Both the position numbers and the translations under genes were made by a program. The notes beneath the pieces were generated by a model, which was given only the letters and a program-made list of their open reading frames with translations, was not told the origin of the DNA and searched no databases. Source: Vavraia culicis subsp. floridensis (taxonomy: Eukaryota; Microsporidia; Pleistophoridae). From it: 64,000 nucleotides of DNA. This document shows positions 37,651 to 59,156 of this stretch, in pieces; positions within the stretch are counted from its first letter, which is position 1; every line of letters starts with the position of its first letter. The DNA lies in assembly GCF_000192795.1 (NCBI RefSeq), contig NW_007360621.1, positions 41,406-105,405 on the forward strand, read 5' to 3'.

Positions 37651-37875
37651 ATGCATATTCTCTCACTTTTATTCTCAGTTATAGCAGCACGCGAAGGAGT
37701 AGCGAAAAAAAGTCAATTATTTGGTAATTTTGGTTCATGGAATCCATTCGGTGCAGGAAGCGCAGGAATAGAGCAGGCGGCAGCAAGACGAGCAGCAGCA
37801 GCAAATGCAGCCGCTGCTGCGAACGGATTTGGCGGCCCCTTTGGCGGCTCCTTTGGCGGTAGTCCTTACTTCTAA
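37651..37875 (+). CDS. Small secreted Pro-Ala-motif family, member 1 (Ala/Gly-rich)
   Basis: 74 residues from the ATG at 37651. Signal peptide MHILSLLFSVIAA; mature part begins near REGVAKK. It is Ala- and Gly-rich, with GIEQAAARRAAAANAAAAANG and FGGPFGGSFGG. The EQ-AAA-x-x-A core and the FG-containing end fit the family found at eight other loci here, though the [ST]P before it is replaced by Ala-Gly. Probably exported; role unknown. Confidence 0.6.
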   Translation: MHILSLLFSVIAAREGVAKKSQLFGNFGSWNPFGAGSAGIEQAAARRAAAANAAAAANGFGGPFGGSFGGSPYF

Positions 37876-38878
37876 ATAAATGATTTGTAAATAAAAGTTG
37901 CTGTGTAGATCCTGGTACGAGCCCCTATGGCTTGCATGGTTGATTCTGTGTTGGATTGCAGTCATGGCCATGCGACTTGTTACGATGCGGCACAACAATT
38001 ACATTTTAAGGTAGATCGACCGTAATCCTGTTTTACAGCGTATTGAGGGGTGGCAGTAGGCGGATCAACCATTATGACACCATTTCTGCGTTGGAAGGGT
38101 GTGTTATGATGCGTGTCTGGTCGGCTCTCAGTTTATAATTCGGTTGAGCCGGTAATTCCGTTGGACTGCCACCTCTGCATGCACCTAAGTGCAATTCTTT
38201 GTTGTTCAAGAAAATGAAAATATAAAACATTTTATTTGCACTTGATGTGAGCATAAAAACATCAGGACCGGTGATGAAACGAGCATTTGTTATGAAAGTG
38301 CTGTGTAGCACTGTACATCCGTGTTCGGTGCTTACATCGATAGTACCCGGTTCAGCACCGTACATAGGAGTACCTATGGTTGAGTTATTTCTACATGACG
38401 CGTATTTTAACTGCCTGTGCTGAGATGCTCTGACCAATCACCGTATATTCTACGATTAATACATGGGAAAATGAATGGTACTAACGAATTAATTTGGATG
38501 ATTGTTTACGATGCTTGAAGGGAAAAGAAGAGAAAGAATAGGAAGATGGAAGGAAGATGGAAAAGAAGGAAAAGAAGGGAAGGGAATGAAGAGAAGGAAG
38601 ATGGAATGAAGAGAAGGAAGATGGAATGAAGAGAAGGAAGATGGAATGAAGGGAATGAAGAGAAGATGAAAGAGAAGGAAAAGAAGATGGAATGAAGATG
38701 AAGGGAAAGAAGGGAATGAAGAGAAGGGAATGAAGGAAAAGAAGGAAAAGAAGGAAAAGAAGGGAATGAACACGATAATTGCGGTGTACACACCCGTAAT
38801 TTTATGGATGATAGCACCGCTTTGCTAGCTAAAATGGTGCTCACAGCACAAAAATATGTTACTTCAAAACACTTTTAG
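37876..38878. other. Intergenic with polypurine tract
   Basis: No gene seen apart from the repeat described separately. Confidence 0.45.
38517..38770. repeat. Polypurine (GA-rich) tract, about 250 bp
   Basis: Nearly pure A/G with rare T on the plus strand, built from degenerate GAAGGAAGATGGAATGAAGA units. Both antisense frames through it stay open as Phe/Ser/Pro runs; they are not genes. Confidence 0.9.
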
Positions 38879-39058
38879 TTACAACCCCGTGGCCGCAGCA
38901 ATGGCCGCATTCCTAGCGACAGCATTCCCCATAGTAGCAGCAACAGGCGATGCTCCAAACGGATAACCGTATCCGTACAAATTATCCTTCTTCATATCCT
39001 GTCCTGCAAAAACACTTCTGAATAGAACAAAGCCAAAAGCAAATATTTTTCCTAGCAT
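38879..39058 (-). CDS. Small secreted Pro-Ala-motif family, member 2
   Basis: 59 residues from the ATG at 39058, chosen because the TATA box at 39076-39086 lies between this ATG and an upstream in-frame ATG (39100). Signal peptide MLGKIFAFGFVLFRSVFA, then QDMKKDNLYGYGYPFGASPVAATMGNAVARNAAIAAATGL (in pieces: YPFGASPVAATMG, NAVARNAAIAAATGL). The SP followed by an Ala-rich helix is the family pattern. Confidence 0.62.
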   Translation of the reverse strand: MLGKIFAFGFVLFRSVFAGQDMKKDNLYGYGYPFGASPVAATMGNAVARNAAIAAATGL

Positions 39059-41260
39059 GAGAATACGTACGCATTCCTTTATATACTTTGTTTTTGCCAT
39101 GTTTTAAATATCAATCAAAATATGAAATGAAACACGCAAATTATACCGGGTGAAAACGATGAAACGGCAAAAACGTGAAGTATGCAGAACAAATAAACAT
39201 TGGTGCTGAGCTTAGATCATACAATACCCATCTATACAACTGTGATGCGGCTGTGGCTGGCACGATCGGTGTTGATCTTATGTTTTGTGATACGTACCAA
39301 GTGTTCACACACGTAGAGGCTGTCCGTTCAATTACAGCCTGTGCAATTGATAGTTTGTGCTGTTATATTTTGGTTTACGTACCGATTGCCGGAGACTCTT
39401 CCCGTCTGAAGATCTGTTGGTACCGCTGTTTTGCATGCGGTGTGCCTGCATTAGGGCTGGAATTGAAAAATGATCGATTAACGACCGTCCCAGTTTCAGT
39501 TAAAGCGCTCATATCACGGCAAGGATTGATTGGCACTGAATACGGTTCTTAATCGATGAGCTACGGTTGTTAATACGACCGGTTCGGGATGCAGAAATAC
39601 CGAGAAGAGCTACGGTTGCAGCACAAAATAGGTTATTGGTAAAAATGCCTTCACCGCAAAATGCTGAGTCATCAATTGAAAGGATAAATAAACGTACTTT
39701 AGTAAAAATACCAGTCGGTAAGGATGATCCTGAGGGCCGCTCTAGTTGAGAAAGGGGTCTAACACGATGTGGCAGAAAAGCACTTTTTTATTCCCAAGAA
39801 CGAACGGCGAACTGCTCGTTGCTCGTTAAGAGTTGCATATTTTGGCACACCTTCCAAGACACAACTCGATTATTTCGATCGGTAAAATGTACCACGAATA
39901 ACAGTGGTACATAGAGATAGCGTATTTACCATGAACAAACGACTCATCACTTGAACAGCAATACGATGTAGTGCTTGAAACAATGCTTTCAAACGGACTG
40001 AGATTCATTTACCGGGTGCACTCCAACTAGCATCGTAGCATCTGTTGCCGTGACAGGCCTGTGTGAACCAAACGAATGCCCTAACACCATTGATCTGGTA
40101 TAAAATGGTTTTTAGTGATAGGATTGACATGCTGTGTAGCATTTTGACCACACGTTGCATCCGAGTGCAAAAAACTGCGTTTAGTACCGTTTCTCACATC
40201 TAACCGTAAATCAGATCTTGCACACCATGATGCAGCTCGTTTTATGATGAAATACCGGTAAAAGGTAAATAAATCGATAAAACGCGTAGTAGTGCGCGCT
40301 TTAGAACGTAACCGTGGTGGTTTGGTACACTTGCCCTGTGTGCACGTAATGCCGTTTGCTGGCACAGGAAAGTGCAGCGATCAAACAACCGTTACAGCAG
40401 CTCTATTTTTACATTTTAACCGGTGCTAAAACACGATTCAGAAAAAAAGATGGTTTTGTAACCGAGCACGTTAATTACGGCCATCTCATCACTTCGTTCG
40501 TGTTGAAAGGCTGTTCCGTGAGAATCTACGGGGTTGGGCGGCATAACACGGATTAAAGTGCGTAGCATGGAATTAACATACGTTTTTTGGGTGATCTTCT
40601 GGTGAACGTGGTAGAGAACGGGTCGGTTTTGCGAATGACCTAATGGCGTGTTCGATTCGGATCAGACAGCATGCATGTGAGCGAGTGCACCTGTGGAAAC
40701 CACAGAAATGGCATAATATACCACGTGAGATGATAAGGCGCTTTACCCGTGATGTGTGAGTGCGAATCTTTGTTGGTAGGTGTAAAAAAGTGGGTCTCAA
40801 ACTCAATAGGATGAGTGGCTAAAAAAGCTGACAGATACACGGTTTGCGTAGAGAGATACCGCCTGCAAGGATACGCCACAGCAACCGGTAAGGAAAGGTT
40901 TATCCACCCGCTTACCTATTGTGTGCCAATGCAGAACGATAACGAGTATACAACGGTTTGCAGACCAAAGACACGTGCCGAAACGTAATCGTTGCCACAA
41001 AACAGCCATTTTAAGAAGATTGCTTGTCCGGCATTGCCTGTTTCCGGGTATGAACCCTCTAACCCTAAACATAAACAGGTAAAAAAAATTAAGGCTCTAA
41101 GAACACGCCCATACCAATTATTGATCCGTGCTGTTAATGCTTACAGTTCGTCACGCAGGCTTAGCCCAAAGAATGCTCGGATCGCTCCTCAAAAAATCGG
41201 TACGCCCTGTCATTAAATCCATTACCAAACTTTAATATCTAACAATCACAGAAAAAACAT
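39059..41260. other. Intergenic, 2.2 kb
   Basis: Several short frames (for example 39175-39552, Cys-rich, non-ATG start) lack promoter, domain or signal-peptide support. Nothing else recognised. Confidence 0.4.
39076..39086 (-). promoter_or_regulatory. TATA box of member 2
   Basis: GTATATAAAGG on the coding strand; the first T of TATATAAA lies 27 nt before the ATG. Confidence 0.65.
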
Positions 41261-41497
41261 CTAAAACATATATTTTGATGACGTGTACGCATACCTTGAG
41301 GCGGATGATACCGCAGAGTTCCTGGCAGCTGCTTCAGCAGCAACTTCGGCGGGACTAACAACATTGGGAGGCATGAAGGGGCTGTAAGGCATCAGCTCGT
41401 TACTTTTCGTGGAGGCTTTGTCTGTGTTCTCAGCAGCACATGGAGCAAACAAATGCGCAATTGCCGTGAGACATAAAACGGAGTGTTTGAAGTACAT
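41261..41497 (-). CDS. Small secreted Pro-Ala-motif family, member 3
   Basis: 78 residues from the ATG at 41497. Signal peptide MYFKHSVLCLTAIAHLFAPCAA. The mature part has a Lys/Ser/Asn stretch (KASTKSNELMPYSP) and then VVSPAEVAAEAAARN, followed by a Ser/Tyr/Ala tail ending SSKYMF. The SPAEVAAEAAA core is one of the clearest copies of the family motif. The coding strand has AATATAAATATG with TATA 27 nt before the ATG. Confidence 0.68.
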   Translation of the reverse strand: MYFKHSVLCLTAIAHLFAPCAAENTDKASTKSNELMPYSPFMPPNVVSPAEVAAEAAARNSAVSSASRYAYTSSKYMF

Positions 41498-41514
41498 GTG
41501 AGCAGGATGCTCCT

Positions 41515-41528
41515 CATATTTATATTCC
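41515..41528 (-). promoter_or_regulatory. TATA box of member 3
   Basis: TATAAATATG on the coding strand, first T at 41524, 27 nt before the ATG at 41497. Confidence 0.65.
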
Positions 41529-42888
41529 TGATGACACATTAAATGTTTGAATGATGATTTATAATTCTGCTCTTGAGCTGTGCAATGATTGGTGAGCTGC
41601 TATTTGATGGTTTGGTGGGTGTGCATGTGATCGGCAGGGACCGATGTTGAAAATGATAGTCCTCGTTCGATTGGTGCGTATTTTAATGCTGACATGGTTA
41701 TCGTACGCGTTATGATTGGAATGCAGCGTTTACAACGCGGATGGCTCAGTGAGCACTCGGTAATTGACCAGCTATTTGATGATTCTGAAGAGAACCAACA
41801 GAATACGCTGACGATACGGCAGTGTTGTGGTGCTGTGTACACGGCATGTGTACATATCCAGCATTGTAAACCGTCCGAAATACCCTCATAATTTGGATGA
41901 GTCCCTATTCTCGGTAAATACCAGCCGTGCTATTTCCTTTTATAAAACGTAACAAAATTTGATCACCTGTTCGATGATATTTCGCTCCTTTACTGTCACC
42001 CCATGTCTTTTGCAGGTTTTGAATCCTTTGTTAGGGCTGAGGAGTTCATTTTTACCTGGTAGTTGTGCAGTTTTAATGCTATCTGTAAAGAACGGCTGAG
42101 AACGTGGCGAAGAAATGAATTGTACAGCAATAGTTGCCGCTGATTTAGCGTAAGAATGTGAACAAAATTTGTGCTTCTTTGCGAACCGATCAATCATCTT
42201 TCAAGCTGCTTCTTCCTTTGTGCGGTGTGCATGGTAATTGAATGAAGATATGAAACGCAAATTCCTGATAAAAAGGAGCCGTGCGATAGATTGCACATAG
42301 AAAATGGCGATATGTTTATGGTGGTGCATGCTCTTCACAACTTTCATGGCAAATCGGCAAAAGCACATTTTTACGTTGAGCAAGTGCTTCTTGCACATTA
42401 CGATTCCGTAGATATTGCTGTAAGCGATACCTCGTACAATATAGCATGGGGAACTACCGCTCAGCGGCGTAGTGCATCCTAAACATGCACGGTGAACAGC
42501 ACCCCTTTCAGCGATATTAACCGCTACAACACGAAAGGTGCGGTAAAAACTGAGGTACCGTGTCCAGCACTTCGTTCGCGAACTTAAAAAGCGCTGTGCT
42601 CTTGGTTTACCCCGTTCTGCACTGTTGCAAGCTGCAACCGCTAAAAATAGCAGTTACACCCAACAATGCAGCGGAAAGGGTGCCTGCTACACAATACCTC
42701 ACCATAACCGGTCCTATGTCCGTTGAACTCGAATCTCTACGAACTGGCGCATTTGATGTGAGCTGTAGAAACCGTAAGCGGTGCGTATGGAGCAGGTGCT
42801 GTTCGTAATATGGCACTGTATCGTGTTCTACAAACTATTCCGGTCGGTAGCTCAGTTCACACATTTTTAAAAATTTGGTTCCTAAACG

Positions 42889-42951
42889 TTAACACTCCAT
42901 GGTGCGCATTAACACTCCATGGTGCGCATTAACACTCCATAATGCGCATTA
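42889..42951. repeat. 20-bp tandem repeat, 3 copies
   Basis: TTAACACTCCATGGTGCGCA repeated; the third copy reads ATAATGCGCA. Confidence 0.9.
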
Positions 42952-43550
42952 ACTGCTCGTTTTAACATCGAGCAGCAACACCTTTAGCCATCGTTATCCG
43001 CACCAGGAGCTGTGGCACAACGGTGGAGACTGTCGTTTTGGCATCTGCACGTAGCGTTGATTGCTGTTCACCTTGTGGTGCAAATACCATGTGTTTTAGA
43101 TTGCGGTACACGTGCTGTTGTAATTATCGTACGGTCAATCATCACGTTTTGTGGATTGAACGTAATTTTTGTGGTAGGGCAGTTCGTTGGTATCCGTGGT
43201 AGCAAAAATATTTAATTTTTGTGGAGAGAACAGCAACGTGCGCAAGTTTGCTCGTTCGTATGTAATAGCTTGGTGCAGGCACGATGTATGTTATGGCCTG
43301 GAAGCGTTGCATGCGTACGGAAACCTTTGGTTCGGCAGAGCAACGAATTGTGTTGTAGCCGGGACAGGCGTGGCATTATGGCTGGACGTAATAATGTTAC
43401 ATGGCTTTCTCTCCCGTGGCGTAAGCCACAATCTTTTAGGGTGATTTCACCACAGAAATGGTTACTTGTGTATACCGGTCTGCCGCTAGGGCAGAAAGAG
43501 AACCGCTAAGATGTTTAATTAATCCTGAAAACAGAAATAAAATTAACGAC

Positions 43551-43605
43551 AAGTAATTTATTTCACAGAATTGACCAATCAGCTTTCGAGTTGTCTTTTC
43601 ATACG
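43551..43605 (-). repeat. Dispersed element copy 3
   Basis: On the minus strand, GAAAAGACAACTCGAAAGCT, then GATTGGTCAATTCTGTGAAA. It matches 44261-44324 in the opposite orientation at about 52 of 60 positions. Confidence 0.75.
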
Positions 43606-43869
43606 ATGCTGCCCTTAACATCCATGCTTTTGATGAAAAAGGGTGCAGAAGTGGCAGATTGGTTGAATGTGTGGTGTAAATTCAAACCTGGCATAGCAGT
43701 CAAATTTGAATTTGTACAAAAACGGGCGGTACCAGGTGTAAAGATTGCGTGCAAAGCACAGCATCTTAGGCATCAATTGCTGTATTACAGCAGCTGAACA
43801 GGTGAAACGAAACTGACACTTCGTTGCTGCGGCAGTTTCATATCGTTCATTTGTACAAGTAACATTTAT

Positions 43870-44112
43870 TTATATTCCATAACTGCTTGACATCCGCCTA
43901 GAAAATCGGTAGCTAGCTGCTCTGCTGCCAGCTGCAGCAGCAGCTATATCAGCAGGCGTTGGCTCAGCACCAAGACCAGCACCAAGACCAGAATTCAAAC
44001 CCATTCCCCAAAAGTCAGGAAAGTACAAATTGTTGCTCCTCACTTCATTGGCAGCACCCTTGTTGCAAAATACATGTGCAAATGTCAGAACAATAGTAGC
44101 TAAGAGGTTCAT
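43870..44112 (-). CDS. Small secreted Pro-Ala-motif family, member 4
   Basis: 80 residues from the ATG at 44112. Signal peptide MNLLATIVLTFAHVFCNKGAA. The mature part includes NNLYFPDFWGMGLNSGLGAG, then AEPTPADIAAAAAGSRAAS, and a Ser/Tyr/Arg end. TPADIAAAAA is the family core. TATA (CTATAAAAC on the coding strand) lies 28 nt upstream. The gene sits between two inverted copies of the dispersed element, in a 0.66-kb interval. Confidence 0.7.
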   Translation of the reverse strand: MNLLATIVLTFAHVFCNKGAANEVRSNNLYFPDFWGMGLNSGLGAGLGAEPTPADIAAAAAGSRAASYRFSRRMSSSYGI

Positions 44113-44132
44113 AGGATGTAAGTGCAGCTCTT

Positions 44133-44141
44133 GTTTTATAG
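44133..44141 (-). promoter_or_regulatory. TATA box of member 4
   Basis: CTATAAAAC on the coding strand; first T at 44140, 28 nt before the ATG. Confidence 0.65.
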
Positions 44142-44260
44142 TTTTTTTATAAACTAGAGTTTCATAGTTGTGTGATGGGATGCTTTTATATCTGAGTGAT
44201 CAGAAACGAAAAGTATAAGTTTAATTGGGAAGTGGGGGGATGATTATCATCATTCATCAT

Positions 44261-44324
44261 ATGAGTAAAAAGACAACTCGAAAGCTGATTGATGAGTTCT
44301 GGGAAATAAATTATTTGACCCTTA
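44261..44324 (+). repeat. Dispersed element copy 4, runs into gap
   Basis: GTAAAAAGACAACTCGAAAG, then CTGATTGATGAGTTCTGGGA, then AATAAATTATTTGACC; cut off by the N run. Confidence 0.75.
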
Positions 44325-44891
44325 NNNNNNNNNNNNNNNNNNNNNNNNNNNNNNNNNNNNNNNNNNNNNNNNNNNNNNNNNNNNNNNNNNNNNNNNNNNN
44401 NNNNNNNNNNNNNNNNNNNNNNNNNNNNNNNNNNNNNNNNNNNNNNNNNNNNNNNNNNNNNNNNNNNNNNNNNNNNNNNNNNNNNNNNNNNNNNNNNNNN
44501 NNNNNNNNNNNNNNNNNNNNNNNNNNNNNNNNNNNNNNNNNNNNNNNNNNNNNNNNNNNNNNNNNNNNNNNNNNNNNNNNNNNNNNNNNNNNNNNNNNNN
44601 NNNNNNNNNNNNNNNNNNNNNNNNNNNNNNNNNNNNNNNNNNNNNNNNNNNNNNNNNNNNNNNNNNNNNNNNNNNNNNNNNNNNNNNNNNNNNNNNNNNN
44701 NNNNNNNNNNNNNNNNNNNNNNNNNNNNNNNNNNNNNNNNNNNNNNNNNNNNNNNNNNNNNNNNNNNNNNNNNNNNNNNNNNNNNNNNNNNNNNNNNNNN
44801 NNNNNNNNNNNNNNNNNNNNNNNNNNNNNNNNNNNNNNNNNNNNNNNNNNNNNNNNNNNNNNNNNNNNNNNNNNNNNNNNNNNNNNNNNNN
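44325..44891. other. Scaffold gap (N run, 567 bases)
   Basis: N only. It separates the dispersed repeat from the Helitron-related region, so a repeat-driven assembly break is likely. Confidence 0.95.
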
Positions 44892-45089
44892 GTATATTTA
44901 GATGATTTACCAGAAAAAGAATGAAATATAAAGAAATGGATGTAAAAGTGAGTTTTTGGTCAATGCAACAGAACATAATATCACAATTAAACAGATGTTT
45001 TGGTGAACAGTTTGATGTTCTCATCATTGACTAACATTCATTTTTCTGGAAGAAATAAAACTATAAATAAGTTAAGAAGTCGATGCATC

Positions 45090-45317
45090 ATGTATCCAGA
45101 TTCTGACAATACACCGACTGAAAAGTTTTTGGTGCAAAAAACACAATTGTTAAATCCTGGTGGTTTTGTCTGTGCTGTAGATGATCAGCTGATTGTCTAC
45201 CGCGGCAAAGCTTTATTTATTGATCGGACCTACGAGAGTCTGCAAAATGTTCCTGTGCTCCGTGCACAGTTCTTAAAAAAGCACTTCGATATTGTACATG
45301 TTCTAAAAAAAGTATAA
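45090..45317 (+). CDS. 75-residue protein, TATA-driven, unrecognised
   Basis: It begins MYPDSDNTPTEKFLVQKTQ at an ATG whose upstream CTATAAATAAG places TATA 28 nt away, exactly as at the secreted genes. The protein is not obviously secreted; it continues GGFVCAVDDQLIVYRGKALF and ends Lys/Val-rich. It lies just upstream of the Helitron relic in another frame and could be a mobile-element fragment or a host gene. No family recognised. Confidence 0.42.
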   Translation: MYPDSDNTPTEKFLVQKTQLLNPGGFVCAVDDQLIVYRGKALFIDRTYESLQNVPVLRAQFLKKHFDIVHVLKKV

Positions 45318-45340
45318 AATCAAAAAAAATAGTACCAATT

Positions 45341-46468
45341 GTGGTAAAAATAATCAGACAATATCTCTACACCGACATTCCATATCACTATGTATATCAG
45401 AACAGCCGATGGGTATTGCGACAGCGAGGTGAGGACAAAGTCATTACAAGATCGTATGCGGTCAATCCAGAGGAAAAGGAGAGATTCTATCTGAGAATGC
45501 TCTTGCTCAATGTGAGAGGTGCCACGTCATTCGACGACTTAAGAAGTGCCAACAATGTTGTATATGGCACATTCGAGGAAGCAGCAAGGGCAAAAAATCT
45601 TCTGCAGGATGACAGTGAATGGAAGAACGTACTGGGCGAAGCTGCAATGACAGAGACATCTGACCACATCAGAAAGCTGTTCGCATACATCTGTGTGTTT
45701 AACAGACCGCATGATGCACTTGGGCTGTTCAACGACTACGTTGACGATATGCGCGATGACATCGTTAACGAGATATATGGTGATGCTGCCAACATGGCTG
45801 ACAGCTAAGATCTGACGAACAGAACTATACTCACAACAAACAACGATACTGCAAAGGAGATCAATGACAGGGTCCTTGACTTGATGATCGGCAACAAAAT
45901 GATATACACGAGTGCAGACTCTATTGTCACAGAGGACAACGATGTTGTTGCGAACTATCCGTTAGAGTTTCTCAACAAGCAGCAGCCTTCAGGAATGCCA
46001 CCGCACAAGTTAGTTCTAAAAAGAGGTGCGTTGATAATGCTATTGCGCAACCTTGATCCAGCCAATATCCTACTCAATGGCACACGCCTGGTGGTTGATG
46101 AACTCCACACAAACTTCATCATAGCTACTATTGTAACCGGATCCAGGAAAGGTAGCAGGGCAGTCATACCAAGGATCGACATGGCACCGAGCGAGACACA
46201 GCTGCCATTCATACTCAAGAGAAGACAGTTTCCGGTTCTTCTTTCGTTTGCGATGACAATCCACAAGTCACAGGGTCAGTCATTTGACAAGGTAGGTGTT
46301 TATCTGCACAGCTCTGTCTTTGTGCATGGTCAGTTGTACGTAGCTTTGTCGAGAGTGCGCTATGCAAAAGGTCTAAGGGCGTATGTTGTTGACAATGGAG
46401 ACCAAGGAAAGCATGAGAATGGTAAAGCATACACTATAAATGTTGTATACAATGAGCTACTGGAATGA
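45341..46468 (+). pseudogene. Helitron Rep-helicase relic, internal deletion and stop codon
   Basis: One frame carries two conserved blocks. The first (45341-45805) has YLYTDIPYHYVYQNSRW, RSYAVNPEEKERFYLRMLLL, VRGATSFDDLRSANNVVYGT and LFAYICVFNRPHDALGL, the linker between the Rep and helicase parts of Helitrons. After TAA (45806-45808) the same frame resumes with RTILTTNNDTAKEINDRVLD and, to 46468, the helicase C-terminus: LKRGALIMLLRNLDP, GTRLVV, LLSFAMTIHKSQGQSFDKVG, LYVALSRV. The Walker A, Walker B and intervening helicase motifs (several hundred residues) are missing at the join, and the HUH nuclease is absent or in the gap. It is a non-autonomous, dead copy. Confidence 0.88.
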
Positions 46469-47892: not shown

Positions 47893-48087
47893 TCAGTATC
47901 CGAACCTACCGCCCATGGGATAAAATGGTCGTCTGGAAGCGGCAGTTGCGGCTGCCTCAGCAGGTGTTTGTGGATCTAACGGGTTGCCATACATGCCTGA
48001 TCCAAACAACAACTTATTGGTCTTGGCGCTCTCGCCTGTGCATAGTATTGCCGGAGTACCTAGGAGAAGAATGCGTAATAAATTCAT
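47893..48087 (-). CDS. Small secreted Pro-Ala-motif family, member 5
   Basis: 64 residues from the ATG at 48087. Signal peptide MNLLRILLLGTPAILCTG; mature SAKTNKLLFGSGMYGNPLDP, then QTPAEAAATAASRRPFY and an aromatic Gly-rich end (GGRFGY). TPAEAAATAA is the archetype of the family core. AATATAAAAG on the coding strand sets TATA 28 nt upstream. The frame is open 163 codons farther upstream, but TATA and the signal peptide fix this start. Confidence 0.72.
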   Translation of the reverse strand: MNLLRILLLGTPAILCTGESAKTNKLLFGSGMYGNPLDPQTPAEAAATAASRRPFYPMGGRFGY

Positions 48088-48107
48088 GGTAAATCCTGGC
48101 ATTCGTT

Positions 48108-48117
48108 CTTTTATATT
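48108..48117 (-). promoter_or_regulatory. TATA box of member 5
   Basis: AATATAAAAG on the coding strand; first T at 48115, 28 nt before the ATG. Confidence 0.65.
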
Positions 48118-48998: not shown

Positions 48999-49005
48999 TA
49001 TAAAT
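48999..49005 (+). promoter_or_regulatory. TATA box of the 477-residue secreted protein gene
   Basis: TATAAAT, first T 27 nt before the ATG at 49026. Confidence 0.65.
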
Positions 49006-49025
49006 ACGAGGAAAATCTTCATAGT

Positions 49026-50459
49026 ATGCATTTTTTGATGTGTTTGTTTTGCTTTTCAAGTATTTACTCTACGAATGGTAACAGCTGCAATGTACGGACC
49101 GGCAGGGCTGGTATAGAAGACAACAACAATGCAGCCAACGATAGATTCCATACGATACAGCGGGAATATGAAATAATGAATAACATGGTTTATGATGCTT
49201 TAGAAATGACTTGCAAGCAATTTATAAAATTGGTACGGAGACGACAGAATTCTTGTGGTAACACCTATTTTAAAATATTGCATGGTGAACTGCTGGGTAG
49301 ACTGAGAGAGAGATGCACAGAAAAAGTGTTACGGAGGATTATTGAATTAAAATACAGTGCAAAAAAATTAAAGGATAGCGTGAAAAAAATGAAAAATACT
49401 ATCAGTCGTAACAAAGTAAGTTTATACAGGGATGAAATAGACAAAATGGCGCACAATATGATTGAAGTTGCTAAGGGCTTTTCGCTTTTGCGTGCGCCAT
49501 ACGCTAACTCACTGGATCTATCCGGCAAAACGGCATATGTTGATGTTTATTACGATGAATTTGAGAAAATGCACGAAAGACTAGCCAGTGCATTGTCCAG
49601 ATTCAGTGCCAAATCAATAATGGTACCGTATTTCAAAACAAGAAATAAATATACTTTTAAATGGTTGTGTGAAACTTGCGAATTTGCGAAAATGAGCGAA
49701 GCATTATTTTCTAAAGCGGAAGAAATGCTTCGGAGTGCCAGAAATTTTTTGATAGAAAAATATAGGCAGACAGGTAATGAAAAATGGTTGGAAACACAAC
49801 AACCGGCTGTTTGTACACCTGCGAGAGACTCGCAGCTTTATAATACTGAGAAGAATATAGGAGATCGGATCTTGTTAAGTGATCAGATATCAGAGAAGAG
49901 CGATGATCTGGAAGAGTGGGATAGTAGTGATTTAAGTGGATCGAATAATTATGAGACGAAAAATGACTTATCTGAGTCTCAGAGAACTGCATTGAATATG
50001 CTACATCCTTCTTGCGCTCCACCCTGTTCATCTGGTTACATATCTGGGTCTGCACCTCCGGTCAACCATCCAGTACTTCCTTCAGAAAATCTTAGTAGAA
50101 CCGTTGGTCGTTGTTCACCTCCACCACAATCATCTCAACACCTAAAACCATCACGATCATCTTCACGACCACAACCACCTCCTCAACACCTAAAACCATC
50201 ACGATCATATTCACGACCACAACCACCTCCTCAACACCTAAAACCATCACGATCATCTTCACGACCACAACCACCTCCACATCAAGAATCATCCTCAAAT
50301 GCCCATTCTAAACCATGTAACCCTCTTTCCCAACCGTTTCATCCAGTCCAAACATCCAATCAGTCTCCTCCTCTTTTATCTTCAAGTAACTCACCAAATC
50401 ATCAACATTTTCGCAACTATTATGATTTACCATCTATGTTTAATTCTACACTAGTTTAA
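49026..50459 (+). CDS. Secreted helical protein with Pro/Ser-rich 16-residue repeats
   Basis: 477 residues. Signal peptide MHFLMCLFCFSSIYSTNG. Residues about 40-260 are a charged, mostly helical domain with several cysteines (MTCKQFIKLVRRRQNSCG, RRIIELKYSAKKLKDSVKK, LCETCEFAKM). A polar stretch follows, then a Pro/Ser/Gln-rich tail. At residues 371-418 three copies of a 16-residue unit occur (QHLKPSRSSSRPQPPP). The DNA encoding them is a 48-bp tandem repeat. Probably exported or spore-wall associated (inference). No family recognised. Confidence 0.72.
   Translation: MHFLMCLFCFSSIYSTNGNSCNVRTGRAGIEDNNNAANDRFHTIQREYEIMNNMVYDALEMTCKQFIKLVRRRQNSCGNTYFKILHGELLGRLRERCTEKVLRRIIELKYSAKKLKDSVKKMKNTISRNKVSLYRDEIDKMAHNMIEVAKGFSLLRAPYANSLDLSGKTAYVDVYYDEFEKMHERLASALSRFSAKSIMVPYFKTRNKYTFKWLCETCEFAKMSEALFSKAEEMLRSARNFLIEKYRQTGNEKWLETQQPAVCTPARDSQLYNTEKNIGDRILLSDQISEKSDDLEEWDSSDLSGSNNYETKNDLSESQRTALNMLHPSCAPPCSSGYISGSAPPVNHPVLPSENLSRTVGRCSPPPQSSQHLKPSRSSSRPQPPPQHLKPSRSYSRPQPPPQHLKPSRSSSRPQPPPHQESSSNAHSKPCNPLSQPFHPVQTSNQSPPLLSSSNSPNHQHFRNYYDLPSMFNSTLV
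50136..50279 (+). repeat. 48-bp in-frame tandem repeat, 3 copies
   Basis: Copies start at 50136, 50184 and 50232 and are nearly identical at DNA level, indicating recent expansion inside the coding region. Confidence 0.92.
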
Positions 50460-53400
50460 TTTTAATTAACATATTGCTCAACATATGTTATTTGCAGCAT
50501 TAAACATAAATTACGAACTTTCCTACTGAAAAATGGCATATCGTGGATTAAACCAAATTTACCTGCCATTTTAGTTATTTTTACAGAAAATACCATTAAT
50601 GATGGCTGTTTCATCGATGTATTTACAACAATTATTTTTTTCTTGTGACAAAGAGAATATCTCTGTCTACAAATCATGTAATTACCAACGTTTTGTACAC
50701 CAGAGAAGGCCAACCTGTAAAAGACACACCACTAAGCCCATCGGTTCGTATACAACCTTTCACAAGCAATTTATACACTTAAAAACGAATAACACGGGCT
50801 ATCATTTTCGTTCCATTTCCTCTTCTCACAATTCCTTATCGCTAAAAAATGTGCCATTCACAGAAACACCATCTCAAAACTATAAATTGGTTGGTGTAGT
50901 GGCAGGATATGTGAAAGGAACGGTAGGCATGCTTAGTTTTCTTGTTACTGATCATTTCTCTGTCTTTGTACGTGCACATCATCGATAAACGGTCACTTAA
51001 CGAAGATAAAATGTTTATATTGTAGCGCATACATCAATTAAACCTGTTTACTGTTCCTTCCATGCTTTCTCATCTTTTGCTCCGAGCAAGCAACCGAGTT
51101 TAGATCATTACAGTAAGTAATTCCTTTAGCCGTAGGATATCATGATGAGTATTACGTAGATCTTCCATGTTTCGTGTGCCTCTTCTCTTCCACATCGTTT
51201 CTTAAAGCAGCTGGTGCTCTTATCGCTTAGTTACAGCACATGTACACGCAATTTCCATAGTTTCTTTCACTAAAAGTCATTTATACATTTTTTCGCATCA
51301 GAACATCTCAAGCAATTGCTGAAGCTCGCAGCAATGTGTTTTAAAGCCTGTTTAATTAACACACACAGACAAGTGTTCCTAGTGCGCTAGTGCGGTTCAT
51401 TATTCTCTGAACTCTACGCACTTCGAAATCAGAAAGTACCCGTTTGGATGTGAAGACACCAATTAAAGCAGCTCCAATGATACACATTATGGTGCATGTT
51501 ATGTCTGTTCATGTGCCTATTTCGGTATATAGAACCATGTATTGTAGATGTGGTGCCTGCCAGCACAATGTGACCGCAATGATGATCTGTCTGCAGCATG
51601 GAAATGTTTGATGGATATAAACCGCAATATTTTTGTGTTGTTAAACTGCAAAACTATAAATTTATGAAAAAGTTTTACCCCTGCGACGTCTGTACTTATC
51701 AGAATCATTTGTACAGTTCTTTCGCATTCCAAGTTCGTCTGAACTTGTACCCGACAGGGCCGGGATGACGAAACATGGTTACTGCAGGCTTGGACGATGA
51801 CAGATGATTTGTCCTGTGCGGTGTCTTTCTGACTGGTCTTGTAAATAAATATTATATGTTTTGTGCATTCTCTGTTTACGCACGTGCTCTTGAAGCATGG
51901 CAGGCTTGTGCCTGGGATGATTCTATGACGCTGCCGGTTCACTTTTCTCTGATCAATTTGAGCGTGGTGTCTTTCCGTCGTAGGGGTAGTCCGCAGTTTG
52001 TATCCCGTCAGTGGGCTATCTATGGTTGTTGTTGTGAAACGACCAATGGGCACCAGCAAGTCACAGGATTACGGATGGATACGTTCTATCGTATGTTACA
52101 CACGTTCTTTTTCCGAGTCCGTCTCATAACCCATTTACAAACAGTTTGTATTAAATAATGCTTTTCCACAGTCATCGGTCTTTTTTCGCGCTTCATCCGA
52201 TATTCAGTTCATCCGTGCGTACTGCTGGCATAATACACTTCTAGCTCTGCAAATTATACCATTCAATGTAGTACACACGATAGATTGTGTATTCCAACAC
52301 CAATGCGTCATTACACGTCTTCTAATTCATAAAATGAGAGTTACAACGATTGGTAGGATCAGCACAATTTTAATGCAAGCACAACGAGTATCAGGTGTCC
52401 TGATTAAAGGTAAAACCACGATCCGAAACAACATACTCTTAGCAAATGATTTGAAACAAATTCTAAGTAAAAACCGCCTATTCCATACGCTTTACACCGC
52501 GTTTCCAGGTACTAAAACACGCTAATCTTAAACACCCTGCCCTACATCCGTAACTATCAAGCCAATATTTACGATATATGCTCTACAACACTTTCGTTGC
52601 TTTAAACTCCCTTTCTATTCCACGTGTCAATGGGCGCCCAAACCAAAAATTGCTAACAAAGTAAATGTTGCTTATAAACCGTTTATCAGTGGTAAATCGC
52701 GCCAGAAACACAGAAAGACCCACAAAAAGACTAAGCGGATCAAATAACCGATGTAAATCGTTTAACAGCGTACAATTGCAACTACGACGGTTGCTAGCGC
52801 ACATATTATCTTCAGAGAATTCTATCAGACAACAAAATATTTATTTTACTCAATTTTGACGTGATATAATAATAATTTTGACTGCAAAATGGTACGTGAT
52901 GCTCAAATATTCACATTATCTAATCACCATTATAAAACACATTTTGTGACATTGCCACTATATTTCAAAGTGATAATGGTTGTCCATGCTTGTTTATTGC
53001 TTGGTATTTCTTGTCTGTGTGCGGTCCATCATAGATTTACAGCAATATGGTTTTGGGCATACACAGGATGACAATTTGGTGAACAGTATGAAAGATAATA
53101 AGGGCGTTACCATGAAATCGTTTGAATTTTAAATAAACAATGGTTATATCGGCGTTATACGAATAGCAATAGTGTATTTGTTGACATCAGCACGTTTTTG
53201 TCGTGTGTGTTGCTGACTGTAGACCCAATTAGGGCGCTAAATGAAATATCTTATTGCCGTAATTTGATCGCATATCAGCAATTATTAGCCACATCGGTAG
53301 GTGCCAAGGTATATGTGCGAACTATTTTCTTGTAAAAGGCACTCATTTGTGCTATTCAGTATTTCTATTCGGGATATGCTATTGGTTGATAGCAGGTAAA

Positions 53401-54789
53401 TGGTGTTACACGGGAATAATCCGCTCAATACGAAGAGATAATACAAAATACATTTCCTATACGATGATTGGCGGTAAAATTGAACGTAAATATCAATCTA
53501 CACGTATCAGAAAATGAGAAGAATGGGGAGTCAGTTGACAGAGAATTAACATAAACAATAAAATAACAGCTTAGAAAGAATGCGGGCTGTCCAAGACCTA
53601 AGGAAATATCAATTTAAATAATGTTATCTTCTGGATCACAAGGGTATTTAACCAGCTCTTGTATAATAATCTAATTGTAAAAGAATGGTTTGTGTAGAAG
53701 CGAGAATAATATTGACTTGTTGTACTTCTGTACGACAGTGATACGCCGTATGGGGCAAACAAATCCTTGGCAGATTGCGGTCAACCACAGAAAAATATTC
53801 TGTGATGGCATGTTTATTTGTGTTAATATGGAGAGGTAGCAATCCAGCAGATATACTTTGGATAACGATTGATTTGCTCGTCCTAATAAAAATTGCTCTA
53901 ACGAATAGGGTGTTTTAACAAATAACAAATGCTGCAAGAATTAAAAAAGGGATTTTATGATTGGTCTTTCTCATTGTTTACTGTTTTTTATGCTGTACGA
54001 TTAATAATATTAATCTAGGCTTATCTGTGATTGCTACCAATAGTTCGCAAGCATTCATGTGTATGCACCATTATACGATAACTAAAGAGATTTATAACCG
54101 AATTATCACTGATTCACATCAACAATACCTGTTAGTAATTCTGAAACAACATTTTCATAGGTACGCACTAATCACCTCACACCGCGTAGCTCCACCTTAT
54201 ACATACCTCAATACACCGTACCAATTATCTGTTCACTAATATTTACTAACCGTACAAAATATCAATATCAGTACTACGTGTGCTAGCCGGTCTGTGATCA
54301 ATGTTAGGGTGTCATATTCAATCACACTCCTTAATTTGTTTATGTTGAAAATGTAAAGTGATTATTAACAGGGGTGTATGTTCATAGTTGGTAATGCTAC
54401 AACAAATAAAATGATAAGTAACTAACTTGGTTCATTATAAAATACTGTCTATTTGGACCTGAAACATTGAATAGTTAAATAAAATAATCAATTTTCTATT
54501 CCATAGCGGTTCGTAGAAAAGCAGTAAAAACGGTGAACACGGTACAATGCAGCATTCCTCTCCACCATGTTACATACCACAGCAGTTGCGAATAAATTTG
54601 TTTGTATTATCCAACACTTAATTAATTTGACAATCAACACCGTATTCTTACGGTACATAACGTTCTCACAACCGTAAAACACCTCATTGCGCTGTATCGT
54701 ATATCTAAATCTCAAAACATTTCTAAAACACCATCAAAACCAAAACATTTGTAAACGTATAAAAGAATCAAAACTTACCGGTAAACAAA
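50460..54789. other. Long stretch (4.3 kb) without supported gene
   Basis: Open frames such as 50599-50988 (+), 51517-52059 (-) and 51856-52158 (+) have no domain, no signal peptide and no TATA at the expected position. Composition is AT-rich. No RNA gene recognised. Confidence 0.45.
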
Positions 54790-55446
54790 ATGTGGATTGC
54801 TTTGCTTGTTCTAATAATGGGAAGATTTATCAACACGTATGAGATAGCGGTAGAATACTGGGAGTATGAAAATGCGCTTAATACGTGGGAGGAGGTGATG
54901 GTGATGATTATGAGGAAGTTTAGTAGGTTTCGGGCTAATGGTAGGAGCGGTGGCAGAGATAATAGGAGCAGTGGCAGAGATAATAGGAGCGGTGGCAAAG
55001 ATAATAGGAGCGGTGCCACAAACGGTGAGAGCAACAGAGGTGGTAAAGATAAGGACAGCGACAGCTGTTCAACAGATACATACTTTGATGTGTATCTCTA
55101 CGAGAAACAGAAACGAAAAGAAAAACGTAAAAATCGAAAACTCCACCGTAAGCAAAGCACTCACATAGAACTTACCACACTGGTGGATGCAAATGATGCG
55201 ATTAATGCACTGTCCATGCGCGACAGTGATGATGCCATCCATGTTAATACGAGCAACGCTCCACCCAGCAGTACTTCCCCATGCGGTAACGATGGCATCA
55301 CCACCATAAATACGCGCAATGCCCAACACAATGATGTTGTTGGGGATGTGACTGTTAAAGAATACGTAAAAGCCTGTGCAAAACAGGTAGAGGATGTCGA
55401 AGAGGAGTATTTTGCATTCAACGATTTTACGCTGTTGTACGATTAG
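54790..55446 (+). CDS. Secreted protein with basic, nuclear-localisation-like patch
   Basis: 218 residues. N-terminus MWIALLVLIMGRFINT reads as a short signal peptide. TATAAAAG begins 32 nt upstream of the ATG. Residues 53-73 are three SGGRDNR-type heptads encoded by a 21-bp tandem repeat. Residues 106-122 are a dense basic run (KQKRKEKRKNRKLHRKQ) of the nuclear-localisation type. The C-terminal half is Asp/Asn/Ser/Thr-rich. A secreted protein with a nuclear-import-like signal is a candidate host-nucleus effector (inference). No family recognised. Confidence 0.65.
   Translation: MWIALLVLIMGRFINTYEIAVEYWEYENALNTWEEVMVMIMRKFSRFRANGRSGGRDNRSSGRDNRSGGKDNRSGATNGESNRGGKDKDSDSCSTDTYFDVYLYEKQKRKEKRKNRKLHRKQSTHIELTTLVDANDAINALSMRDSDDAIHVNTSNAPPSSTSPCGNDGITTINTRNAQHNDVVGDVTVKEYVKACAKQVEDVEEEYFAFNDFTLLYD
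54946..55008 (+). repeat. 21-bp in-frame tandem repeat, 3 copies
   Basis: AGCGGTGGCAGAGATAATAG-type units encode SGGRDNR, SSGRDNR and SGGKDNR. Confidence 0.85.
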
Positions 55447-56444
55447 AAATGCCCTTGCGACCACGAAACCAGTTCTGCATCGTTGCACGAATAGAACGTA
55501 CCATTGTTAGCTCAATAATAAGAACCATTTCCATGACCACGTGCTGCATACCAAATATCACCGTACTGCTCTTGCACTGATCTGCTCATTCATCACAAAT
55601 AGCAACCGCCATCACAACACCACTATTCATCTCATACACTATCACAAATACCGATCACCACGAAAAATACGCACAGCAACCCAAATGCATACTTAGAAGA
55701 TGAACCGTTGCCAGAATAGCATCGATACCTTAACACCGCAATACGCATCATTTAACACGGTGCTCATTAAACAACAATTTCATTTCAATCTTGCATTTAT
55801 GTTAAATTAAATGCTAAATTACCAATATCGGTAACATTTACGTATCATCCGCTGTATTCCCGTTCTTAAAAGGTGTTTGTTGCACATATTTTCATTCTCC
55901 TGTAGAATTATAAGTATTTGTCGTACTTCGCTGGTCCGTCCCTCAATACCGCACCATTTTACTCCTCAATTCACCGTAGCAACACTTCACAACGTATTAA
56001 TATGTTTGCTTTGTATGCAACATAATTGCTACACGGTACGGCCCACCCGTCCAAATTTTCACGCTAATTTTCATGAAGAGTAGCAAAATCAACTCGTAAT
56101 CAAACCCTTTTTGCGTATGCCAACGTTAATGCTTGTACGATAGAATGATATGGCATGCTACCAAATCATTTTAGTGCAAAACCAATCTTAGCAATGAAAC
56201 AGTCCTTACAACATGGTTGAGTGCATTTATGCTACATGTCTGTGCGTATTGGTACGTCCCTTGATGCTACACGATGTGAGCGTATTACACTTTTACATTT
56301 CACTCTTTTTGCTGCAGTTTTATGTTCTAGAAAGTTTTTGCCACACCACTGTACCGTACTCTAAAACACATCATTACATTCCTTACCACGCTCTTACACC
56401 CTATGCTTCATTCCAGGTATAAAAATAATCCATCAATCCATTGA
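55447..56444. other. Intergenic with TATA box of the next gene
   Basis: No gene recognised. TATAAAAA at 56418 belongs to the following small secreted gene. Confidence 0.45.
56416..56425 (+). promoter_or_regulatory. TATA box of member 6
   Basis: GGTATAAAAA; first T 27 nt before the ATG at 56445. Confidence 0.65.
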
Positions 56445-56645
56445 ATGCGTTTCACACCAACAACCCTAACAATTCTTATCATCCTTAAAACAGCATTTTG
56501 CGCTCTCAGCAACGTTGTAGATGATCTTAACGATGTCATGAAGACCCCCATGCTCGAAAGAGCTGCTGGAATGAACGGTTCGGTTCCGCTGACACCCGTA
56601 CAAGCAGCCGCCAATGCAACTGCAGCGAACGCAGGCATGTTTTGA
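56445..56645 (+). CDS. Small secreted Pro-Ala-motif family, member 6
   Basis: 66 residues. Signal peptide MRFTPTTLTILIILKTAFC; mature ALSNVVDDLNDVMKTPMLER, then AAGMNGSVPLTPVQAAANAT and AANAGMF. The VPLTPVQAAA core and NAGMF end closely match member 9 (LPMTPSMIMAKAAAVNAGMF). It opens the right-hand cluster of four plus-strand members (56.4-59.2 kb). Confidence 0.72.
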   Translation: MRFTPTTLTILIILKTAFCALSNVVDDLNDVMKTPMLERAAGMNGSVPLTPVQAAANATAANAGMF

Positions 56646-56853
56646 TGATTGTTTGGCATGTTGCGTATTAAACGCGTTTCTATTTTTTATTATGCAGCAT
56701 TCTGTGCGGAGCGATGGTACCGTGTTGTTCGTGTGAGCTGCGACAGCGTGTAGCACAACGTAATACGATGCATAAATGGTTGATTGATGCATGAATGACT
56801 TGTAGCGTAGAGATACGGTTGAAAATCGTGGTCTCGTGCTAAACCGTTCCATT

Positions 56854-56929
56854 GATCGGTAACGTGTATTTTGATCGGTAACGTGTATTTCGATCGGTAA
56901 AGTGTATTTTGATCGGTAACGTGTATTTT
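56854..56929. repeat. 19-bp tandem repeat, 4 copies
   Basis: GATCGGTAACGTGTATTTT repeated from 56854, with single-base variants (C for T, AAAG for AACG). Confidence 0.9.
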
Positions 56930-57083
56930 GAACGCCACCAATAACATTTCAAGACAGGGGTCCGTTATCAACATCATTATCAAAGCAATGATATACCGCC
57001 AGTATCATTATCCATTACCGCCCTCTCAGCATTTCCAACCAATAACGCGTATCCAATTCTCTAACCGCATCGTTTCACTGTTC

Positions 57084-57092
57084 CATATAAAA
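57084..57092 (+). promoter_or_regulatory. TATA box of member 7
   Basis: CATATAAAA; the TATA begins 27 nt before the ATG at 57113 and abuts an upstream in-frame ATG at 57092, which is therefore unlikely to be used. Confidence 0.65.
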
Positions 57093-57112
57093 TGTACACC
57101 ATTTCTTGCACC

Positions 57113-57310
57113 ATGCACGTTCTTACAATACTAATCTATGTTTTATCCCTGGTTCATTGCAACCTAGAACAGGAACTAAAACGATACTTGGACATGAAAA
57201 GCAGTTCTATGCTTGGATCTGCGATAGGATATGATAACACCTGTCCTACAACACCTATACAGACAGCGGCAGCTATTAGAACGTGGCCAGCGGGAATACG
57301 TGGTATATAA
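57113..57310 (+). CDS. Small secreted Pro-Ala-motif family, member 7
   Basis: 65 residues from the ATG at 57113. Signal peptide MHVLTILIYVLSLVHC; mature NLEQELKRYLDMKSSSMLGS, then NTCPTTPIQTAAAIRT and a short Gly end. PTTPIQTAAA is the motif. It has a mature cysteine just before the motif. Confidence 0.68.
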   Translation: MHVLTILIYVLSLVHCNLEQELKRYLDMKSSSMLGSAIGYDNTCPTTPIQTAAAIRTWPAGIRGI

Positions 57311-57679
57311 GTAGCATTGGAATAGCTTGGTGTGGATCGTATTGTGTGAAATGAATAGTATTGCAGGGCAGTATCGTATTATGTAGAAATACCGTGTTGT
57401 AGCGATGGCGTATTATCTTGTAATAATGTAGGCACATATCTTATTGTTACGCTATTTAAACCTGCGGTATTATGTTCGTATTAAACTTCGCATTCTTCAT
57501 TTGTACTTGCTACCGACCCGTACGTGCGCATCATTTTATGCCCGTACACTTCTCTTTATGCACTTTTATACATATTTATATCTTTCATGCGCATTATAAA
57601 ATAAATTATTGCGGTTCTGTACATAATACCAACTTATTTTGCTACCACGTAGGCAACAATCGTTCACTATACCATTATT

Positions 57680-57886
57680 CCTATCCAATGCCATGATCCC
57701 ATACCGTACTTCCTATCCAATGCCATGATCCCATACCGTACTTCCTATCCAATGCCATGATCCCATACCGTACTTCCTATCCAATGCCATGATCCCATAC
57801 CGTACTTCCTATCCAATGCCATGATCCCATACCATGCTTCCTATCCAATGCCATGATCCCATGCTATGCTTCCTATCCAATGCCAT
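57680..57886. repeat. 32-bp tandem array, about 6.5 copies
   Basis: The unit CCTATCCAATGCCATGATCC continues CATACCGTACTT; copies at 57680, 57712, 57744, 57776, 57808, 57840 and a partial at 57872. It ends 25 nt before the TATA box of the next small secreted gene. Confidence 0.93.
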
Positions 57887-57908
57887 ATTATACCACCGTT
57901 TCATCTTC

Positions 57909-57918
57909 TGTATAAATT
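57909..57918 (+). promoter_or_regulatory. TATA box of member 8
   Basis: TGTATAAATT; TATA begins 27 nt before the ATG at 57938. Confidence 0.65.
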
Positions 57919-57937
57919 CTTACTCAATTCCAATGCA

Positions 57938-58117
57938 ATGCTAACATTCCTATCAATACGCACGCTTGCCATCCTCACAAAGACGTACGCACTACAACAT
58001 TCTAAGGGCGAGCATGTATATGAAGCATTGCCAGGGCTAGGTGGTCCTTTTCCAATGTCACCTGCTGATGCGGTTGCTAGTGCCGTGGAGAATAATGATG
58101 ATGTGTTTGGAATGTAG
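57938..58117 (+). CDS. Small secreted Pro-Ala-motif family, member 8
   Basis: 59 residues from the ATG at 57938; an upstream in-frame ATG at 57866 lies before the TATA box and is excluded. Signal peptide MLTFLSIRTLAILTKTYA; mature LQHSKGEHVYEALPGLGGPF, then PMSPADAVASAVENNDDVFG and M. MSPADAVASA is the motif. Confidence 0.68.
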   Translation: MLTFLSIRTLAILTKTYALQHSKGEHVYEALPGLGGPFPMSPADAVASAVENNDDVFGM

Positions 58118-58952
58118 CACTGTGGTAAAAGCAAAAGACAAGAAGTGAATTAAACGTATCCATCAAATATTTCCAATAGTATGATCATTTCCAGCAAATA
58201 CCTTCATAGAAGCACTAATCACATGCTTGTGCTGCGCAGCAGCGGTAAATAAAACATTACTCAGCAGCACACCCTCGTTCTATCACCGGAAAGAAAAAAC
58301 TTTTCGTACCGTATCCCAGTCAAACATTCTTTATGCATTGCTCGGTATTTGTTGCATTCTTACACATCCCTGCTTGTATGGCCGCAGCAACCTGCCATGT
58401 TTGATAAAAATGTTGCACAGAGGATGGTTGTTTGAACCGTAAACAAGGGCTAACAATTATAAATCAGTTTATGCACAAATGCGTTCACAGTGCAAAATAA
58501 TAGCATGCTATTATGCAATGCATAAACAAAATACACTTCTTAACTGCGTGTTATTGTTGTTGAGGAGGATGCGTGCTTTAACATGAACACGAAAAGGTGA
58601 TAATCGCAATTTAACAATCATAACGCTGTTCTGAGAACGGCGTGCGATAGTAAGTGATACTTTATAACGGTGTTAGAATGAAACACCTGGTGTGAAAGTA
58701 AAGAATAGCACAGTGCATTGAACAGATAAGGTGTTCAAAACATTAATACGGTATGTGAACTGATCGCATAACGTGATATGGCATGGTATGCGGTCAATAG
58801 AATGTTATAGCACCATAAATAAACTATTATTAGCGCTACACCACGTTAATGCTGATACCGTACCACGTATTACATTGCGTGTCTTACCTCGTGCATCCTA
58901 AAACGTATCTCACCCCACACCACCTATATAAAAAGAACAGAACCACCAAGCA
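58118..58952. other. Intergenic
   Basis: No gene recognised beyond the promoter of the next gene. Confidence 0.45.
58924..58935 (+). promoter_or_regulatory. TATA box of member 9
   Basis: CTATATAAAAAG; the TATATAAA begins 28 nt before the ATG at 58953. Confidence 0.65.
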
Positions 58953-59156
58953 ATGAAAGTGCCATCAATAGCAGCAATTATTCAAATAGCGTTCGCACAT
59001 TGCAGGTTTAGCAATCCTGGCAATGATATGACCGATTTAAGAAGCAGTGGACTCGTGCATGGGCTGCAAGGATTGACGAGTGATTTGCCCATGACACCTT
59101 CCATGATTATGGCCAAGGCTGCAGCTGTCAACGCAGGTATGTTTGGTGTTAGGTAA
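58953..59156 (+). CDS. Small secreted Pro-Ala-motif family, member 9
   Basis: 67 residues. Signal peptide MKVPSIAAIIQIAFAHC; mature RFSNPGNDMTDLRSSGLVHG, then LPMTPSMIMAKAAAVNAGMF and GVR. It shares the NAGMF end with member 6 and the PM[ST]P core with members 6 and 8. The acidic position after the second Pro is replaced by Met. Confidence 0.7.
   Translation: MKVPSIAAIIQIAFAHCRFSNPGNDMTDLRSSGLVHGLQGLTSDLPMTPSMIMAKAAAVNAGMFGVR

Follow-up and report, generated by a model that had tools for sequence, protein, structure and literature searches.

A probable family of miniature secreted proteins with a common TATA box at one locus of Vavraia culicis

The locus and its promoters

The microsporidian Vavraia culicis subsp. 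floridensis carries nine short open reading frames (ORFs) in the final 64 kb of the 105,405-base contig NW_007360621.1, and at least eight of these very probably encode a family of small secreted proteins. We refer to this stretch of 64,000 nucleotides (positions 41,406 to 105,405 of the contig) as the window; the assembly to which it belongs, GCF_000192795.1, comprises 5.63 Mb in 80 contigs. A preliminary description of the window, made from its letters alone, had proposed nine ORFs of 59-80 residues, and we found all nine with an ATG start at the places, on the strands and with the sizes that it gave. They are listed here as members 1-9, each with a short motif that follows the signal peptide, the C-terminal core where one is present, and the upstream TATAAA box, the coordinates of which were calculated by hand from its distance to the ATG.

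Member 1, 37651..37875, + strand: 74 residues; signal-peptide-like start, KKSQL motif, Ala-rich then Gly-rich tail, Ala stretch not preceded by Ser/Thr-Pro; a probable member only; TATAAA at 37624..37629, + strand
Member 2, 38879..39058, - strand: 59 residues; KKDNL motif, SP core then Ala-rich stretch; near-identical protein P0009; TATAAA at 39078..39083, - strand
Member 3, 41261..41497, - strand: 78 residues; KSNEL motif, SPAEVAAEAAA core; near-identical protein P0003; TATAAA at 41519..41524, - strand
Member 4, 43870..44112, - strand: 80 residues; RSNNL motif, TPADIAAAAA core; relative THOM_2727 (partial); TATAAA at 44135..44140, - strand
Member 5, 47893..48087, - strand: 64 residues; KTNKL motif, TPAEAAATAA core; orthologue THOM_2728; TATAAA at 48110..48115, - strand
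Member 6, 56445..56645, + strand: 66 residues; KTPML motif, TPVQAAANATAANAGMF core; TATAAA at 56418..56423, + strand
Member 7, 57113..57310, + strand: 65 residues; KSSSM motif, TPIQTAAA core; TATAAA at 57086..57091, + strand
Member 8, 57938..58117, + strand: 59 residues; KGEHV motif, SPADAVASA core; under the crude signal-peptide threshold; TATAAA at 57911..57916, + strand
Member 9, 58953..59156, + strand: 67 residues; RSSGL motif, TPSMIMAKAAAVNAGMF core; orthologue THOM_2730; TATAAA at 58927..58932, + strand

The start codons are those chosen in the preliminary description, a choice that the TATA box may have guided. Members 1, 2, 3, 5, 7 and 8 have another in-frame ATG further upstream; the hydrophobic start begins at the chosen ATG. 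A signal peptide had been ascribed to each of the nine, and by a crude hydrophobicity rule a signal-peptide-like start is present in all except member 8, which falls under the threshold.

The nine ORFs look like real genes, and the strongest evidence for this is the promoter. TATAAA starts at -27, -25, -27, -28, -28, -27, -27, -27 and -26 from the ATG in members 1 to 9, respectively, within -25 to -28 in every case. In a background of 274 kb, made up of the window and a further 210 kb (40 kb of the latter from the same contig), the box occupies the same positions in 18 of the 2413 non-member ATG frames of at least 40 codons, with frames nested in one ORF counted separately; the earlier claim that the promoter is kept across the nine is thus borne out. 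We consider all ATG frames of this length the fairer control, because the starts of the members were not our own choice and upstream in-frame ATGs exist. Among the 68 of 74 larger genes with enough upstream sequence, TATAAA occurs between -40 and -8 in 10 and between -70 and -10 in 13, and 15 have a box if the search extends to each of the first four ATGs. Between 37 and 60 kb of the window there are 39 signal-peptide-like ATG frames of 40-100 codons, and the eight of these with the TATA box in place are eight of the nine members.

All nine members fall within the TATA(-27) class of microsporidian promoters, in which the box starts at -25 to -32 from the ATG, and none has CCC or GGG, the mark of the microsporidian CCC/GGG class, in the 15 bases before the ATG. 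The published passages on the class place the box at about -27, as here, and report it for 12.5% of 280 genes in Nosema ceranae (PMC2685015) and for 194 genes in Trachipleistophora hominis, against 977 with CCC (PMC3486916). With the box at about -27, transcription would begin almost at the ATG. Mapped transcripts of Encephalitozoon cuniculi are described as having 5' untranslated regions of less than 7 nt (PMC2803860); since TATA(-27) is established as a core promoter in microsporidia, the mRNAs of the nine are probably near-leaderless as well. A bacterial promoter and terminator scan of 56000-59500, which applies the wrong model for this organism, returned sites no commoner than in shuffled sequence, and a scan of the window with Rfam returned nothing at the gathering score.

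Repeats and parts of a Pif1/Helitron-like reading frame lie among the nine genes. Member 4 stands between the arms of a 50-nt inverted repeat (43550-43599 and 44268-44317, 90% complementary), the right arm of which ends beside a run of N at 44325-44891. A 19-base repeat array (56835-56948) is found upstream of member 7, and a 32-base tandem array of seven overlapping copies (57637-57924) reaches the promoter of member 8. The Pif1/Helitron-like reading frame is present in pieces at 45090-46468, with a Pif1 domain at 45884-46468 and TATAAA at -28; a longer relative in the background (L011:6455-7534) also has TATAAA at -28.

Family membership and relatives

To relate the members to one another we used a leave-one-out profile of the mature parts of members 3-9, taken from residue 21, a cut chosen after viewing the sequences; for members and shuffles only the mature part entered the score, for background ORFs the entire sequence. 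Each of members 2-9 scored above all 848 background ORFs; as high a score was reached by 0-4 of 500 shuffles of its own sequence and by 0-1 of 700 shuffles of the other members. With a profile of all nine, 3 of 700 other-member shuffles were as high for member 4 and 1 of 700 for member 2. The preliminary description had named a profile no better than shuffled Ala-rich controls as grounds for giving the family up; the profile is better for eight of the nine, and the family of miniature secreted proteins holds on this measure for members 2-9 but not for member 1.

The core motif proposed for all nine, P-x-[ST]-P-x-[DEQ]-x-A, is present as written in members 5, 6 and 7 only. A shorter form, [ST]P.[DEQ], fits members 3-8, and a looser pattern, in which an Ala-rich stretch follows Ser/Thr-Pro, fits eight of the nine, with member 1 as the exception. 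Of the 21 short secreted-like ORFs in the locus, 5 contain the relaxed core [ST]P.[DEQ].A; of the 107 outside it in the 274 kb, none does. The middles of the proteins, which had been thought to have diverged almost completely, have in fact a second motif in common: [KR][KSTG]xx[LMV] lies after the signal peptide in all nine, member 1 included. This motif was chosen post hoc from the alignment, with the mature part cut at residue 18; it reached at most five of the nine in any of 5000 shuffles and is present in 17 of 134 background secreted-like ORFs.

Similarity between the members is low, with a mean column identity of 31%. The middle alone is not significant for members 3, 6 and 9 (61, 140 and 176 of 1000 shuffles as high), nor is the core alone for members 1 and 2 (997 and 131 of 1000), and several pairs, such as 3-7, 1-7, 2-9 and 7-8, are without similarity (141, 138, 142 and 99 of 300 shuffles as high). 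When the proteins were used as queries against the whole genome, member 6 matched member 9 (E 3.0e-6) and member 7 (E 0.0026), member 9 matched member 6 (E 7.8e-7, in an alignment that runs one stop beyond the end of member 6), and member 7 matched member 6 (E 0.0031); the remaining six matched only themselves. All matches of the nine queries in the 5.63-Mb assembly lay within the locus, and these counts are lower bounds. Three or four different Ala codons are used in each of members 2-9 (GCT in 10 of 14 in member 4), so a simple triplet repeat does not account for most of the Ala; in member 1, GCA accounts for 11 of the 17 Ala codons.

A profile search of 5.8 billion proteins identified relatives in T. 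hominis for three members, and among the matches listed no other relatives carry a name. THOM_2730 (82% identity, E 1.4e-17) is a relative of member 9, THOM_2728 (78% identity, E 3.1e-7) of member 5, and the partial THOM_2727 of member 4; the three tags follow the order of members 4, 5 and 9 in the window, which fits conserved gene order. Pooled over the three pairs, 70 of the 79 positions in core plus tail are unchanged, and 70 of the 112 in the remainder of the proteins (Fisher p 5e-5). The sums were made by hand, with the core taken from two residues before Ser/Thr-Pro and gaps treated as differences; the partial pair entered without its first 20 residues, and three more before the start of THOM_2727 counted as differences. 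The core is kept in T. hominis for the three members with a relative found, as the preliminary description would require. The relatives are labelled only as hypothetical, uncharacterized or 'Transposable element encoded', the last of these opening the UniRef label of THOM_2730.

Near-identical proteins from another source, which are alleles or belong to a sister strain, were found for members 1, 2, 3 and 9. Member 1, in which an Ala-rich block is followed by a Gly-rich block, and its near-identical proteins P0010 and P0011 have lengths of 70, 74 and 77 residues, varying through NPFG/GGSF-like repeats.

No member matched Pfam at E 0.001, we found no article naming THOM_2727, THOM_2728 or THOM_2730 (supplementary files lie outside such a search), and a literature search requiring all terms turned up no work on secreted proteins of microsporidia that are small or Ala-rich. 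The earlier statement that no described family with this motif was known agrees with this outcome: the family is lineage-restricted and, by these searches, undescribed, although other microsporidian families of this kind are known. Taken together, the profile, the motifs and the promoter make it very probable that members 2-9 are a real family of secreted paralogues, and member 1 is a probable further member because of its promoter, its position and its [KR][KSTG]xx[LMV] motif.

A proposed role at the host interface

We propose that the locus holds a lineage-restricted family of small secreted proteins, expanded by local duplication, the members of which are probably co-expressed from a TATA-type promoter. 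Their sequences show a layout of a hydrophobic start, the [KR][KSTG]xx[LMV] motif, a variable linker and a C-terminal Ala-rich stretch, which opens with Ser/Thr-Pro in eight of the nine. The least certain step is the last, in which the proteins would exit the parasite and serve as small subunits of a host-facing coat. By this we mean the plaque matrix known from T. hominis and, at a later stage, the wall of its sporophorous vacuole; the matrix is described as a coat that infiltrates the host cytoplasm and contains secreted hexokinases (PMC6460350). The variable linkers and tails would give each protein its own surface.

The core may form an N-capped, Ala-rich helix. Capping-box and N1-proline rules for helix starts, as set out in passages of PMC4515027, place Ser/Thr at the N-cap, Pro at N1 and an acid or amide at N3, and this signature (Asp/Glu/Gln at N3) fits the sequence of members 3-8; member 9 has Met at N3. 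An AlphaFold model of member 9 has a helix over residues 49-64 that starts at the Pro of TP, at low confidence. A capped helix of this kind could pack against itself or against a common partner, and such packing would explain why the core changes slowest.

That the proteins work outside the parasite cell, at the point of host contact, is probable. The proposal as a whole we regard as finely balanced, and within it the role of coat component is plausible rather than probable; we slightly favour it over that of a soluble effector, and it may overlap with a role in spore structure. In our judgement, Ala/Gly/Ser/Tyr-rich sequences with a slower core suit a coat at least as well as they suit effectors, and we count the Gly-rich block of member 1, variable in length among near-identical proteins, on the same side.

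Several results weigh against this proposal. Member 1 fails the core profile, with 354 of 848 background ORFs, 372 of 500 of its own shuffles and 646 of 700 shuffles of other members scoring as high. A structural role does not follow from composition alone, and the model of member 9 has a mean predicted local distance difference test score of 58.5 and a predicted template modelling score of 0.26. THOM_2727 was listed at E 0.25 only and did not appear in a second search, and for the other six members no T. hominis protein was among the matches listed at E<=10, which may reflect loss, divergence, missing annotation or the search itself. The second search, to which members 1 and 2 were added, gave no further T. 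hominis protein among the matches listed (8000 candidates scored); this absence means little, because members 6 and 8 of the window and THOM_2727 were also missing there.

A soluble effector is the alternative that survives best. Here the proteins would be released into the host cell, the conserved helix would bind host targets, and the paralogues would diversify under host pressure, as might be expected of small, secreted-like, strongly diverged paralogues that are restricted to this lineage. Published passages point in the same direction: in Nematocida, targeting signals, clade specificity and membership of large families are overrepresented among host-exposed proteins (PMC5423893), and signal peptides are overrepresented in the families that only T. 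hominis and V. culicis possess (PMC4654818). The Nematocida large gene families (NemLGF), as described in part of the former source, resemble our nine in their targeting signals, clade restriction, in-lineage paralogues and general want of known domains. They differ in that at least ten members per species are asked for, whereas nine (a lower bound) were found here, at one locus, with at most 80 residues each and a common promoter. The slowest-changing part between species is, however, the very core that would meet host targets, and we hold an effector role to be possible but somewhat doubtful.

We consider it unlikely that the members are components of the spore wall, the polar tube or another structure of the late stages, expressed together during sporogony. 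Outside the family, TATA-only genes do include other secreted-like proteins, and the Ala/Gly/Ser/Tyr-rich members resemble structural proteins in our reading; against this, the nine are without a Pfam match, and the matches listed by the profile search of proteins include none named as belonging to spore wall or polar tube. Clusters of ricin-B-lectin-like proteins in microsporidia are, in the passages that describe them, likewise secreted local duplicates, and differ in carrying a lectin-like domain (PMC3749934). The nine members have no such Pfam family at E 0.001. A beta-trefoil has about 120 residues, and the members, at 59-80, are too short for one. Elsewhere in the window, a secreted-like protein at 15501-16325 has a weak ricin-B-lectin match (E 0.0064, under the curated cut-off) and a Gly/Trp-rich repeat tail.

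That the nine are short ORFs with look-alike Ala-rich frames, brought together by chance, is very improbable. Ala-rich sequence is of low complexity, member 1 is dominated by a single Ala codon and fails the profile, and several members fall short of significance on core or middle alone. Set against these points are a TATA spacing fixed in 9/9, profiles controlled by shuffling, relatives that retain the core, and a second motif outside the Ala region; in our view the T. hominis relatives, the profile and TATAAA refute chance for members 2-9, the membership of member 1 excepted. Least credible of all is that the members are cargo or remnants of a transposable element, for which the UniRef label of THOM_2730, the Pif1 domain and the inverted repeat around member 4 could be cited, since an element should be dispersed and no member has a copy elsewhere in the assembly, while the tag order is kept in T. 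hominis; we reject this origin.

The nine make a compact candidate, open to testing, for material located where microsporidian and host meet. They also illustrate how easily very small secreted proteins are missed in parasite annotation, T. hominis entries being among the matches listed for only three of the nine.

TATA boxes beyond the nine and other genes of the window

The 18 ATG frames outside the family with TATAAA at -28 to -25 compare with about 7 expected from the 1.79 per position found elsewhere. Signal-peptide-like starts are present in 10 of these 18 frames, against 364 of the 2395 others (p 1e-4), and among larger genes of at least 120 residues, members excluded, in 5 of 8 with TATA against 24 of 105 (p 0.026, a weak test). 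The TATA class also contains transposon and housekeeping genes. TATAAA at about -27 may perhaps mark a promoter class for exported proteins, a link with secretion that the passages on TATA(-27) in N. ceranae (PMC2685015) and T. hominis (PMC3486916) do not make; here the enrichment in secreted-like frames is seen with the family excluded.

On this basis we suggest, tentatively, a secretome regulon of which the nine would be the densest part. In it, a TATA box fixed at about -27 without CCC would mark genes for exported proteins on near-leaderless mRNAs in this lineage. If so, promoter and signal peptide alone could suffice to recognise exported proteins in the genome, down to miniature ones, and secreted genes that have been missed could be recovered systematically in this lineage.

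Several larger secreted-like genes belong to the TATAAA class, between 37000 and 60000 and at 9355-9786 and 10708-12270 in the window, and at L008:1755-3329, L010:2657-3208 and L016:3113-4294 in the background. One of them is a neighbour of the nine and not a member of the family:

49026..50459, + strand: larger secreted-like protein of 477 residues with Pro-rich repeats; TATAAA at -27

This neighbour is without a Pfam match. Among 8000 candidates scored it has no T. hominis relative at E<=1; one protein, from another source and 92% identical, is listed at that level.

The window also encodes an Argonaute (Piwi, PAZ). A protein of 144 residues at 60398-60832 has a histone fold (Pfam Histone, E 4.6e-18); by eye it is H3-like with an unusual N-terminal tail, and it is possibly a centromeric H3.

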